Assembly: GCF_000709795.1 (NCBI RefSeq)
Contig: NZ_KL503804.1
Span: 124,001 to 188,000, forward strand
DNA from: Bartonella bacilliformis Ver097
Lineage (GTDB): Bacteria; Pseudomonadota; Alphaproteobacteria; Rhizobiales; Rhizobiaceae
Direction of reading: 5' to 3'
Length of the DNA: 64,000 bases
How positions within the stretch are numbered: position 1 is the first letter of the stretch; the number at the start of each line of letters is the position of its first letter. Under the pieces are notes generated by a model. That model did no database searches. It was not told the origin of the DNA and was given only the letters and a program-made list of their open reading frames with translations. A program made the translations under genes and the position numbers. Positions 18,875 to 23,207 of this stretch are shown here, one piece after another.

Positions 18875-21421
18875 TTATTCAGTTTTAAGGAAAGTTTTGC
18901 GTTTCCACCAACCAACACGCTTAGTTTGTTGAAACGTTTCAGAAGTTGATGAGGTAATAGTCATTTTAGTTGAATCTTTTTCAACTATTGCTTCTGGTTC
19001 AAGCTTTTCTTTTGAGATTGCTGATTCCTTAATGGAATTTTTTTGCTTTTGACGTGTTGATTTTCTTGTTTTTATAGTTTCTTCTTTAACAATTATCTCA
19101 GAAATTGGTTCACTAATTTTTTTTCCTTTAGTTATTAAATTATTTTCGAAAACTTCTGTTGTTATTTGTTTATCATTTTCAAGAATTTTCTGAGAAACCT
19201 TTCTAGGGTGTGTTTTATGCTTTTTAGACTTATGATTTACATTAGCTTTTGAAACACTATTTTGTGTTTTCATAAGGTGTCTTTTATTATTTTGGGGTTG
19301 ACTAAATCCAACAGGCTCAGCATTTGGAACATAAGATTTGCGACGTTCTGCTTTAATTTCTGCTAATGCTTGTTGAGCAAAATTTCCAACTGGTTCTGCG
19401 TAAGGAGTGCGGAACTGATAAAAATTGTTACCTTGGTTACGACGATTTCCACGGCGTCCACGACAACGCCCACGATGACGAGTCTCTTCACCATTTTGAA
19501 CATCATTTTCATGAGAAGCATGAAGAGAATTATCTGTGGATTCAGTTATCTTATGCGAACGTTGTTTGTTATTTTTAATAAGCATCGAATCTTCAATAGA
19601 TTCAACTTTTACTGAGAGTATATTGTTGACTTTTTTCTTGCTTTCATTTTCAGAAGTGGTTGGAGATAGGTTATCTTCTTTTGCTGAAGTTCCTTTTAAA
19701 ATGAGGAGGTGTTGCATTCCAATGCTATCATCTGCTTCAATGCTAATATTGAGTTTAAAGCGTGTCTCCAAATCAACAAGAATATTGCGTTTATAATTTA
19801 ACACATAAAATGCTGTTGCTGTAGGGGTTCGTACAATAATGTTATGCTGCGAATTATGTAGAAGATATTCTTCAATTGAACGCATAACATGTAAAGCAAT
19901 TGATGATTCAGAGCGTATATTTCCGGTTCCAGAGCAATTCGGGCAGGGCTGTGTTGTGCTTTCTAAAACCGATACACGAATACGTTGACGACTCATTTCC
20001 AGGAGGCCAAAATTTGAAATACGCCCTACTTGAATACGAGCACGGTCACTTTTTAAACAATCTTTTAATTTTTTTTCAACAAGCTTAATGTTGCGCTTTT
20101 CAAGCATATCAATGAAATCAATCACAATCAAACCAGCCAAGTCACGTAAGCGTAATTGACGAGCTATTTCTTCAGCTGCTTCAAGATTTGTTTGTAACGC
20201 CGTTTTTTCAACAGAATGTTCTTTAGTAGATCGACCTGAATTTATATCAATAGCAACAAGTGCTTCTGTCTGATTAATAACAAGATAACCACCAGATTTT
20301 AAAGAAACTTGCGGATGCAACATCTTGTCAAGTTGAGTTTCAATACCATTGCGTGTAAAAATAGGTATTGAATCTCGGTAAGGTTGAACAGCTTTTGCAT
20401 GGCTAGGCATAAGCATGCGCATAAAATCTTTAGCTTCACGATATCCTTGGTCACCAGAAACAAGAATTTCAGTAACATTTTTATTATAAAGATCGCGTAT
20501 AGAGCGTTTTATAAGACTGCTTTCTTCATAAACTAAACAGGGAGCTATTGATTTAAGTGTCAAATTACGAACAGTTTCCCATAATCTTATAAGATATTCA
20601 TAATCGCGTTTAACTTCAGCTTTTGTTCTATTTTCTCCAGCTGTTCTCAGGATTACTCCCATACCTTTCGGAACTGCTAATCCTTTTACAATTTCTTTGA
20701 GACGTTTGCGATCTTGCGTATTAGTAATTTTTCGTGAAATACCACCGCCGCGTGCTGTATTTGGCATTAAAACAGAATAGCGACCCGCTAATGATAAATA
20801 AGTTGTTAGTGCTGCACCTTTATTACCACGCTCCTCCTTAATTACTTGAACTAATAAAATTTGACGCCGTTTAATAACTTCTTGAATTTTATATTGACGC
20901 TCTTGTTTGGAGTAATCAGTAGGCCTTTCTTCAAAGGAATCTTGTGAATTAATCACTCCATTATCATTATCAGAAGTAAGTACATCAAACGATTCATCAT
21001 CCATTGTTATTGATTCAGAGAGAATATCATTCTCAATACCTTCTGCTATAGTACAAGAATTCTTTTGTTTCTTTGAGTTTCTTTTACCTTGATTTGTTTC
21101 TTCAATGAGATCATCATCATTTTCAAAGGAAACCGCTTCCTCTTCTTTTTCAAGGAGGGCAAGACGATCAGCAACAGGAATTTGATAATAATCAGGGTGA
21201 ATCTCTGAAAATGTTAAAAATCCATGACGGCCACTCCCATACTCTACAAAGGCTGCTTGAAGAGAAGGTTCTACACGTGTTACACGTGCTAAATAAATAT
21301 TTCCTTTGAGCTGCTTTTTGTGTTCTGATTCGAAGTCAAATTCTTCAATTTTGTTGCCTTGAACAACAACAACACGTGTTTCCTCCGGGTGGGAGGCATC
21401 GATAAGCATTTTGTTTGACAT
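18875..21421 (-). CDS. rne: Ribonuclease E/G
   Basis: RNase E is the endonuclease and scaffold of the RNA degradosome. The 848-residue protein has an N-terminal S1 domain (GNIYLARVTRVEPSLQAAFVEYG) interrupted by a long acidic insert at about residues 92-170, a common alphaproteobacterial feature. The RNase H/DNase I-like catalytic core contains VAIDINSGR and LAGLIVIDFIDM, and the zinc-link CPNCSGTG contains the two cysteines. The C-terminal third is low-complexity, basic and Glu/Lys-rich (RGRCRGRRGNRRNQ), expected to be disordered and to bind RNA and partners. It has a 547-base upstream gap containing palindromes. Confidence 0.96.
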   Translation of the reverse strand: MSNKMLIDASHPEETRVVVVQGNKIEEFDFESEHKKQLKGNIYLARVTRVEPSLQAAFVEYGSGRHGFLTFSEIHPDYYQIPVADRLALLEKEEEAVSFENDDDLIEETNQGKRNSKKQKNSCTIAEGIENDILSESITMDDESFDVLTSDNDNGVINSQDSFEERPTDYSKQERQYKIQEVIKRRQILLVQVIKEERGNKGAALTTYLSLAGRYSVLMPNTARGGGISRKITNTQDRKRLKEIVKGLAVPKGMGVILRTAGENRTKAEVKRDYEYLIRLWETVRNLTLKSIAPCLVYEESSLIKRSIRDLYNKNVTEILVSGDQGYREAKDFMRMLMPSHAKAVQPYRDSIPIFTRNGIETQLDKMLHPQVSLKSGGYLVINQTEALVAIDINSGRSTKEHSVEKTALQTNLEAAEEIARQLRLRDLAGLIVIDFIDMLEKRNIKLVEKKLKDCLKSDRARIQVGRISNFGLLEMSRQRIRVSVLESTTQPCPNCSGTGNIRSESSIALHVMRSIEEYLLHNSQHNIIVRTPTATAFYVLNYKRNILVDLETRFKLNISIEADDSIGMQHLLILKGTSAKEDNLSPTTSENESKKKVNNILSVKVESIEDSMLIKNNKQRSHKITESTDNSLHASHENDVQNGEETRHRGRCRGRRGNRRNQGNNFYQFRTPYAEPVGNFAQQALAEIKAERRKSYVPNAEPVGFSQPQNNKRHLMKTQNSVSKANVNHKSKKHKTHPRKVSQKILENDKQITTEVFENNLITKGKKISEPISEIIVKEETIKTRKSTRQKQKNSIKESAISKEKLEPEAIVEKDSTKMTITSSTSETFQQTKRVGWWKRKTFLKTE

Positions 21422-21720
21422 AAGTTAAAATCCTGAAGACGCTATGCGCAATTTTATTTAAACAAACAGCGTAACTATTTATAAATGTAAATGACTGTTT
21501 GTTATAAAGGGGGAGTGCAGACATAATGTGATGGGATACCGTACGTAAACATATTATAGTATTTACAGTATCTTCAATCATCATTCCCATCTGTTTTATA
21601 TGACTCATATTTTACAAGTCTCCGGCAAAACAATTCCGAAAATGGTCAGAATATCCGAACCAGCGAATCTTAAACGCATCCTGTTCTTAGGATATGAAGA
21701 TTTTCTTATAAAATCCTGAA

Positions 21721-21734
21721 CCTATAGCTATAGG
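21721..21734. repeat. Perfect 14-bp palindrome CCTATAGCTATAGG
   Basis: The sequence equals its own reverse complement over 14 bases. It is 300 bases upstream of the rne start and 235 bases upstream of the amidase start. It shares CCTATAG with the palindrome at 21802-21813. Confidence 0.55.
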
Positions 21735-21755
21735 AACAACCTTCTAAAAACGATT

Positions 21756-21770
21756 CAATGAATTTCATTG
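21756..21770. repeat. Inverted repeat CAATGAA-T-TTCATTG
   Basis: A 7-base perfect dyad around one central base lies between the two CTATAG palindromes upstream of rne. It is AT-rich and could be an operator half-site pair, a cruciform or chance. Confidence 0.35.
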
Positions 21771-21801
21771 ATAACTCTTAAGTCAATACTAGATGGTTAT
21801 G

Positions 21802-21813
21802 ATCCTATAGGAT
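21802..21813. repeat. Perfect 12-bp palindrome ATCCTATAGGAT
   Basis: A self-complementary 12-mer whose centre is exactly 80 bases from that of the 14-bp palindrome at 21721-21734, with the same CCTATAG half. The pair could be a two-site operator. Confidence 0.5.
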
Positions 21814-21968
21814 GCGCAAATGTTCTTTTATGTTGATATCATACTTTTGGCAAGTAACAATTCAGTGTACCTTACGATAATGACTTGATTTAGCATTCCA
21901 TTAAAACATGATTATATTCCATACACGATAAAGTAAGTTATAAATGTAAAATAGAGTTTCTGATTGTA

Positions 21969-23207
21969 ATGATATTTTCACTAAAGTTCTGTATTAAAAA
22001 GCTACAAACAGCTTTTGGGGATGTTATTAGGCATTTCTTATGCTGTTTATTATTTTTTATGATATGCCAAACACATATTCAAGCTGCAGAAGCACTAAAA
22101 CTCATTAGTTTGCGTGCTATTGGCGATAATATGTATACACGTATTATTGTAGTTTTTAATGTTGAACCAAATTTCCATTTACAAATTTTAGATACGCCTG
22201 CACGTTTAATTATCAATTTGCCTTTAACTGATTTTTCTTCACAAAATGTGTCATTAAATAAAAAGAATACATTATCAAGTATGTTATCAGATGTGCGTTA
22301 TGGTTTTTCTGATACACAAACCTCACGCATTATTTTAACGAGTAATGTCGTTTTTTCTGTTGAAAAAACTACAGTGCAAAAATTAGATAATGGTTCATGG
22401 CAAATGTTGATTGATATTGCACTCAGTACACAACAAAAATTTAATGAAACATTTAAAAAACAACAGTTAGTTAACAATACTATAAAAACACAACAACCAA
22501 ATTTAAAATATCCTTTTTGTGTTACTATTGATCCTGGTCATGGTGGAATTGATAGTGGTGCGCAAGGTATTACTGGTATTTTAGAAAAAGATATAACTCT
22601 AGCCTTCGCACGTGCATTGCGAGATGAGTTAGAAAAATATACTGATATTGATGTTATGCTAACACGCGATTCTGATGTATTTTTAAGATTAAACGAGAGA
22701 ATTAAAAAAGCACAAAAATTTTGTGCTGATCTTTTTATATCAATTCACGCGGATACTATTAATACTCCCTCTCTGCGTGGTGCTACAGTGTATACTATCT
22801 CTGATAAAGCATCTGATGCAATAGCAAAAACTTTAGCTGAGAGTGAAAACAAAGTTGATCTTCTTGATGGACTACCTGCGGAGGAACTTCCTGAAGTTGC
22901 AGATATTTTGATTGATCTTACTCAACGTGAAACTCATGCATTTTCAGTTAATTTTGCTGATCGTGTTATTTTAAATCTATCAAACAGTAATATTCATTTG
23001 ATTAATAATCCTCATCGATATGCTAATTTTCAAGTTTTAAAAGCCCCCAATGTACCTTCTGTGTTGATAGAAATAGGTTATTTATCTAATAAAGAGGATG
23101 AAGAATTATTGAATAATCCTCAATGGAGAAAAAAAATGGCGGCTTCTATTGCTCATGCTATTTTTCAGTTTTTTCAATATCAACAAAAGATTATGCAATC
23201 TCTTTAA
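21969..23207 (+). CDS. amiC: N-acetylmuramoyl-L-alanine amidase (AMIN plus Amidase_3)
   Basis: This enzyme cleaves the amide bond between MurNAc and the stem peptide and acts in septal peptidoglycan splitting. The 412-residue protein begins with a hydrophobic export segment (FLCCLLFFMICQTHIQAAEA, about residues 23-42). An AMIN domain follows to about 150, and a zinc amidase domain runs from about 180 (VTIDPGHGGIDSGA, EKDITLAFA, LFISIHADT, VLIEIGYLSNKEDE). The two His, the Glu ligand and the catalytic Glu are visible. The AmiC symbol is by architecture; the precise paralogue is not certain. mrcA follows, a functional cell-wall pair. Confidence 0.9.
   Translation: MIFSLKFCIKKLQTAFGDVIRHFLCCLLFFMICQTHIQAAEALKLISLRAIGDNMYTRIIVVFNVEPNFHLQILDTPARLIINLPLTDFSSQNVSLNKKNTLSSMLSDVRYGFSDTQTSRIILTSNVVFSVEKTTVQKLDNGSWQMLIDIALSTQQKFNETFKKQQLVNNTIKTQQPNLKYPFCVTIDPGHGGIDSGAQGITGILEKDITLAFARALRDELEKYTDIDVMLTRDSDVFLRLNERIKKAQKFCADLFISIHADTINTPSLRGATVYTISDKASDAIAKTLAESENKVDLLDGLPAEELPEVADILIDLTQRETHAFSVNFADRVILNLSNSNIHLINNPHRYANFQVLKAPNVPSVLIEIGYLSNKEDEELLNNPQWRKKMAASIAHAIFQFFQYQQKIMQSL

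Follow-up and report, generated by a model that had tools for sequence, protein, structure and literature searches.

What is conserved in front of rne, the gene for RNase E, in Bartonella bacilliformis Ver097, and do the two palindromes that stand out there take part in the control of the gene? In the window, by which we mean the whole stretch of 64,000 nucleotides analysed here, the rne ATG lies at 21421 on the minus strand and that of a divergent gene, which, in line with the original prediction, we presume to encode an N-acetylmuramoyl-L-alanine amidase, at 21969 on the plus strand, and the gap between them measures 547 bp. The original prediction had proposed that two palindromes in this gap, palindrome 2 (CCTATAGCTATAGG) and palindrome 1 (ATCCTATAGGAT), form a two-site operator or belong to a structured leader of rne, possibly for autoregulation. 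Its letters and coordinates were confirmed: both palindromes are perfect and share CCTATAG, their centres (21727.5 and 21807.5) are separated by exactly 80 bp, and the third dyad that it had placed between them, TCAATGAA-T-TTCATTGA, is found there and was followed in the leader alignment only. The features of the locus are collected in Table 1.

Table 1. The rne locus: features with their positions in the window and the support for each (uORF, upstream open reading frame).
Feature	Position	Strand	Support
rne, RNase E, 848 aa	18875..21421	-	Pfam RNase_E_G (1.4e-100), RNase_E_G_Thio (2.5e-26), S1 (2.7e-5)
Overlap of uORF and rne, 77 nt, different frames	21345..21421	-	ORF coordinates
uORF, 87 codons (MSHIKQMG...), frame +1 relative to rne	21345..21608	-	open in 61/61 genomes
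AGGA, putative SD-like site of rne, inside the uORF	21431..21434	-	role suggested by position
CCGGAG, SD-like motif of the uORF, separated from the ATG by 11 nt	21620..21625	-	alignment
U-rich stretch separating the hairpin from the uORF SD, possible target of RNase E cleavage	21624..21642	-	conservation; cleavage role putative
Hairpin, consensus GGUUCGG-loop-CCGAACU, own copy GGTTCGGATATTCTGACC	21644..21661	-	35 nt before the uORF start
Palindrome 2, CCTATAGCTATAGG	21721..21734	neutral	1/61 genomes (its own); weaker dyad kept there in relatives
Third dyad, TCAATGAA-T-TTCATTGA	21755..21771	neutral	leader alignment only
Palindrome 1, ATCCTATAGGAT	21802..21813	neutral	feature of the original prediction; no conservation
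ATAAAA, -10-like, 17 nt from the -35-like hexamer	21826..21831	-	position and conservation; putative assignment
CTTGCC, -35-like, in the promoter-like block (21823-21866)	21849..21854	-	block conservation; putative promoter function
Divergent ORF, presumed N-acetylmuramoyl-L-alanine amidase	21969..23207	+	same neighbour matched in 59/60 Bartonella loci

The pair is unusual within the window. Perfect palindromes of at least 12 bp number 34 in the 64 kb, against a mean of 27.3 (sd 4.6) in 40 Markov-1 simulations, which is near background and not clearly an enrichment, and the rne-leader pair is the only one in which two palindromes with a common 7-mer lie no more than 150 bp apart. Two non-overlapping palindromes with a common 7-mer arose in about 0.2% of 4000 simulations of a 547-bp stretch of the same composition, a post hoc figure for a feature chosen because it looked odd. 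The window contains eight matches to CCTATAG, four of them within the pair; for the whole window 3.5 were expected, and 3 of 100 shuffles reached eight. In the 1.39-Mb genome CCTATAGCTATAGG occurs exactly once, and a further site differs from it by one mismatch. At the edge of palindrome 1, AGGATGCG (21809-21816) is perfectly complementary to CGCATCCT (21675-21682), 126 nt apart, and a single-sequence fold of this leader predicts long-range pairing in the region of these two segments.

Odd as it is, the pair fails the check that the original prediction had set for it, the conservation of sites and spacing across Bartonella. From a larger group we drew 61 Bartonella genomes evenly; the region upstream of rne was matched in 60 of them, and these 60 leaders were aligned, the leader of the 61st genome (G003) having been missed by blastn. 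In the closest relative (G050/L002, 87% identity) the two sites read GTCCTTTAGGAT and CGTATAGCTATAGG, both imperfect. Neither CCTATAG nor CTATAGG occurs between -440 and -190 from rne in the remaining 58 of the 60 aligned leaders, and any two perfect palindromes of at least 12 bp are present in that interval in 3 of the 60, this one included. Columns conserved in at least 90% of the 60 genomes amount to 1 of 12 in palindrome 1, 0 of 14 in palindrome 2, 12 of 152 in the variable leader and 60 of 187 in the part of the uORF before rne; the promoter-like block has 24 such columns out of 44, the hairpin-SD block 38 out of 62. The palindromes are thus conserved neither singly nor as a pair among the orthologous promoters, and since neither site is perfect in the closest relative and the 14-mer of palindrome 2 is confined to the window's own genome among the 61, a two-site operator is not supported.

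A dyad is nevertheless kept near palindrome 2 in relatives. Over 36 sequences its helix is 74.5% paired, with some two-sided changes in 4 of 4 pairs and a quarter of the cells unpaired, and the covariation score of both palindrome dyads taken jointly is 0.267 vs 0.199, above all 500 shuffles. This kept dyad counts against a reading of pure chance. The RNAalifold consensus of the same 36 leaders contains the downstream hairpin only. A stem between the palindromes (arms 21728-21738 and 21800-21810) was considered as well: over the 36 sequences the helix made of the CTATAG letters is 54.4% paired and an inner helix of four pairs 90.6%, the covariation score of the whole stem is reached by 14 of 500 shuffles, and such pairing is not supported as it stands. 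In three Bartonella genomes (G014, G005 and G053) parts of the rne leader have a second match of 29-43 bases elsewhere; these short matches are weak and possibly due to chance. To judge from these comparisons, the palindromes are probably incidental, a curiosity of one genome.

What the Bartonella genomes share is an rne leader of about 400 nt, counted from a presumed transcript start, which is composed of a promoter-like block, a hairpin-SD block and the uORF. Counted from a CATAAAAG-like motif up to and including the start codon of the uORF, the distance is 210-234 nt in all 60 leaders. The promoter-like block would place the start of the rne transcript near 21819; its CTTGCC-17-ATAAAA site was not among the promoters listed by a sigma-70 scan. 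As the palindromes lie downstream of this conserved block, they are probably inside the transcribed leader.

The hairpin is the only consensus structure that RNAalifold found in the leader, with 98.3% of the cells paired over 43 distinct sequences and two pairs changed on both sides, and its pairing drops when the tested structure is slid along the alignment; the copy in the window carries one C-U mismatch in the stem. Its covariation is modest, the score being reached by 2 of 500 shuffles and the count of doubly changed pairs by 30 of 500. The leader alignments used here, A1 and A2, hold 36 and 45 of the 60 leaders, near-identical rows having been dropped by eye. A covariance model of the hairpin-SD block matched 2 of 64 loci from other genera, so the block can be claimed for near relatives only. 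No intrinsic terminator, as a terminator-based attenuator would possess, is listed between 21300 and 22100 on either strand; Rfam gave no match at the gathering threshold in the window or in 20 family loci, rne5 is not among the six Rfam matches with E up to 5, so that the leader does not group with that type, and the region has no match in phage records. Of the original proposal, an rne leader with a regulatory role is supported: the conserved hairpin and the overlapping uORF, which the original prediction had not listed, speak for it, and the palindromes drop out as its elements.

The uORF runs out of frame through the SD-like site and the start codon of rne, and it is open in every one of the 61 Bartonella genomes compared, the 60 aligned ones as well as G003. 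Across the genus it has 81-89 codons, begins with ATG or GTG at -178 to -193 from rne and ends 68-77 nt inside the gene, in frame +1; a CCGGAG-like motif precedes the start codon at a long spacing. Over the 59-64 codons that lie before rne, the 60 rows contain no stop in the uORF frame vs 405 and 164 in the other two frames, and all 60 rows are open in the former vs none in either of the latter; none of 2000 column shuffles kept all 60 open (mean 1.7, maximum 43). Inside the uORF each of the 225 gap runs has a length divisible by three, whereas 163 of the 1201 runs found in the leader upstream of it do, these runs being counted per row of the 60 aligned genomes and not per event, so that related rows repeat events.

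Constraint on the peptide itself is not evident in Bartonella. There, the uORF has a pN/pS of 0.66 vs 0.70 +- 0.10 in shuffles, 38 of 100 of which were as low (24 of 48 rows, every second one, were used); since this lies within the shuffled null, the plain NG86 medians of 0.56-0.58, which come without a null, are not to be taken as constraint. An IQ-TREE codon model gave nearly equal likelihoods for a free run and for a run meant to fix omega at 1, and carries no weight here. GC content by codon position is flat in the uORF (0.42, 0.36, 0.39) vs 0.59, 0.31 and 0.28 in rne, and the rne-like pattern is missing from the uORF in all three lineages tested, which makes it unlike an ordinary protein gene. 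No Pfam or NCBIfam family was found for the peptide, and the motif [FLY]-[YIHN]-[GN]-[RK]-Q is present in 52 of the 60 Bartonella peptides. In this genus the reading frame is maintained, and selection appears to act on translation as such more than on the peptide.

The layout extends to other alphaproteobacteria. We counted ATG ORFs that start 90-260 nt upstream of rne and cross its start, and compared them with 40 rounds of dinucleotide shuffles, the in-frame ORFs serving as a built-in control for composition. Out-of-frame crossing ORFs were found in 60/60 Bartonella leaders (shuffle mean 3.9, maximum 8), 104/117 loci of other Rhizobiaceae (mean 32.4, maximum 42), 24/29 of the order sample (7.7, 12), 26/26 Rhodobacteraceae (8.7, 13), 48/53 other named loci (15.1, 23) and 20/29 of the class sample (7.1, 12), in every group above all 40 shuffles; loci that have none number 13 of 117 in the family, 5 of 29 in the order and 9 of 29 in the class. 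In-frame crossing ORFs are in no excess outside Bartonella, with 7/117 in the family, 2/29 in the order, 2/26 in Rhodobacteraceae, 2/53 in the other named loci and 3/29 in the class against shuffle means of 17.5, 4.7, 5.3, 8.1 and 4.1, respectively. Bartonella has 4/60 vs a mean of 1.9, so in-frame scarcity is unseen there. In the family loci (L062-L181) the in-frame count of 7 falls below the lowest of the 40 shuffles (10), as if an N-terminal extension of RNase E were avoided in them. When an SD-like 4-mer within about 15 nt of the ATG is required, 31/60 Bartonella (mean 0.4), 18/117 family (4.0) and 25/26 Rhodobacteraceae loci (1.6) are left, that is, the excess stays, but most family loci drop out. 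By the same measure the control genes rpsD and proS gave 3/30 and 7/30 vs 22/28 for rne, in best-scoring family loci, with two Bartonella loci in each control sample and none in the rne sample.

These groups were composed as follows. The family, Rhizobiaceae in the GTDB sense to judge from the named loci, was represented by 121 genomes, from which the window's own locus (L061), Bartonella L065 and L097 (contig ends at rne) were removed to leave 118, and one further locus was dropped for N or a short upstream stretch, leaving 117. Among 80 named loci, 26 were taken as Rhodobacteraceae by the genus in their record titles, and 53 of the other 54 were used. The order, class and control sets hold best-scoring loci only (29 of 61 order genomes, 29 of 67 class genomes and 30 of 111 per control gene), and for this reason they lean to close relatives; of the 29 order loci, 28 belong to other families and one, L203, to Rhizobiaceae. 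Some sets share genomes (for example, L211 is G010 and L203 is L171) and are therefore not independent. Because of this overlap and this leaning, the counts outside Bartonella are descriptive. A frame conserved beyond chance and an out-of-frame crossing of the gene start are both observed; Bartonella and Rhodobacteraceae provide the strongest case, the remainder of the class the weakest.

In Rhizobium-type leaders, chosen by a sequence motif and with some repeat records, the uORF start lies between -191 and -203; 22 of the 29 uORFs use frame +2 and 7 use frame +1, and in 28 of them no stop interrupts the frame before rne. No clear SD was seen by eye before the uORF in these leaders, an SD-like motif having been found in Bartonella and Rhodobacteraceae only. 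In Rhodobacteraceae, an SD-like motif and an ATG open an ORF that crosses into rne in 23 of 26 loci, 20 of them in frame +2, 3 in frame +1 and none in frame 0. Pro-Pro-Gly is known for EF-P-dependent ribosome pausing, and PPG is present in 20 of the 23 Rhodobacteraceae peptides (loci L228-L289), where it could be such a pause site near the rne start. A programmed frameshift giving an extended RNase E was also considered; it is unlikely, since the uORF frame differs between lineages, being either +1 or +2. That the layout survives this switch of frame among genera suggests that the overlap as such is selected, and not one peptide.

Since a uORF runs into the rne start in each Bartonella genome compared, and in many alphaproteobacteria beyond this genus, the amount of RNase E may be set by a translated switch. 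We propose that the conserved element is a translated, cis-regulatory rne leader that gates rne translation, possibly with feedback by RNase E, and that the palindromes are incidental to it; we give this reading a probability of roughly 60%. The uORF would be translated, and a ribosome on it would have to pass over the AGGA and the AUG of rne, so that the ribosomes crossing this region could set the frequency of initiation at rne, most likely with fewer initiations when traffic on the uORF is high. The uORF stop lies 68-77 nt inside rne, in our view too distant for reinitiation by a simple stop-start mechanism; interference with rne initiation is the most direct expectation. RNase E output would in this way follow ribosome availability. 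A more specific proposal, that the out-of-frame uORF senses translation capacity and that alphaproteobacteria make RNase E inversely to the availability of ribosomes, is put forward tentatively and may well prove wrong. The hairpin and the U-rich stretch beside the uORF start may allow RNase E to cut the leader of its own mRNA, which would take away or uncover that start, and by this feedback rne might be autoregulated.

Other readings were weighed against this one. Translation of the uORF might instead chiefly shield the long leader from Rho termination and RNase attack and so have a positive effect on rne, with expression only where the leader is translated, which we consider unlikely: the overlap would give unbroken ribosome cover up to rne, and uORF-dependent transcription attenuation is described for an S. 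meliloti DUF1127 gene in PMC12218461, but an ORF that abuts rne or reads in frame with it would provide such cover without an extended out-of-frame overlap, and in-frame ORFs lie below the shuffle means outside Bartonella.

Less probable still, and rather doubtful, is that the uORF encodes a functional small protein acting in trans, its overlap with rne being gene packing. The strictly held frame in Bartonella and the motif shared by most of its peptides fit such a protein, as do the PPG of the Rhodobacteraceae peptides and the pN/pS values outside Bartonella, which are 0.76 vs a null of 0.95 +- 0.07 in Rhodobacteraceae (0 of 100 as low), a mild peptide constraint, and 0.84 vs 0.94 +- 0.05 in Rhizobium-type uORFs (1 of 100 as low). 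Against it are the Bartonella pN/pS, equal to the shuffled null, a codon-position composition that is not protein-like, the lack of a Pfam or NCBIfam family, and peptides that diverge greatly between genera while position and overlap stay. These last features of Bartonella, the pN/pS at the null and the codon-position GC, would also suit an untranslated frame that stays open through base composition or through some other constraint, RNA structure for instance, the more so as stops are rarer in GC-rich genomes; that reading is very improbable in view of the stops that crowd the other two Bartonella frames, the gap lengths in multiples of three, the dinucleotide shuffles, the in-frame comparison and the control genes. 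Finally, repression of rne or of the amidase gene by a dimeric regulator bound to both CTATAG palindromes, with their spacing of 80 bp, is scarcely credible and appears largely refuted by non-conservation, for despite the rarity of a perfect pair in one such gap and the dyad kept at palindrome 2, the letters and the pair are unconserved in the other 59 aligned leaders, the 14-mer is absent from the other 60 genomes, column conservation at both palindromes is near zero, and the conserved promoter-like block is upstream of both.

RNase E starts much of the mRNA decay in these bacteria, and automatic annotation tends to omit ORFs of this kind because they overlap a longer gene. The widespread overlapping uORF offers a concrete way into RNase E homeostasis in a class to which rhizobia, marine roseobacters and pathogens belong, and it would exemplify an ORF whose frame and overlap seem to be under stronger selection than its peptide. 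The mechanisms that control RNase E beyond bacteria such as E. coli are described as largely unknown in PMC10989929. In openly licensed papers, judged by titles and the starts of abstracts, a uORF before rne is unreported, and a Ribo-seq table may contain a report of it. Neither rne nor RNase E is mentioned in the main text of PMC7717549, nor rne in PMC3616915; term searches of PMC10117765 and PMC12691583 gave nothing on the rne leader, and the passages on the rne gene found in PMC6238624 do not deal with its leader. In type, the element would be a cis-regulatory overlapping uORF, which is known, with a regulatory role that is proposed here.

How does this leader compare with known systems? 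The feedback element in the E. coli rne 5' UTR, which we take to be Rfam rne5 (RF00040), was reportedly described by Diwa et al. in 2000 and by Schuck et al. in 2009. It resembles the Bartonella leader in being a long rne leader with a hairpin and a proposed role in RNase E homeostasis, whereas the latter has no Rfam match and holds an overlapping uORF; the E. coli rne leader is not known to have such a uORF. That leader measures 361 nt according to the passages of PMC10989929 used here, in which Synechocystis RNase E is described as cleaving a U-rich site in its own rne 5' UTR, and in which, for other genes, hairpin binding by RNase E with cleavage in AU-rich RNA just downstream is cited. Bartonella has a similar order of parts, a hairpin followed by a U-rich stretch by the uORF SD, and this likeness makes self-cleavage feedback plausible there, cleavage being a candidate function; the Synechocystis passages describe cleavage and premature termination and mention no uORF. 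In S. meliloti, PMC12218461 describes attenuation by the uORF of the DUF1127 gene, for which the authors propose a monitoring of ribosome availability. Both are alphaproteobacterial uORFs in an mRNA leader; the S. meliloti one precedes another gene, with premature termination between uORF and gene, whereas the rne uORF overlaps the start of its gene and has no listed intrinsic terminator. The R. sphaeroides mraZ/dcw leader also has a possible ORF in an alphaproteobacterial 5' UTR, which, in the passages of PMC5089854 drawn on here, is confined to R. sphaeroides species and overlaps a terminator; the rne uORF, instead, is widespread.
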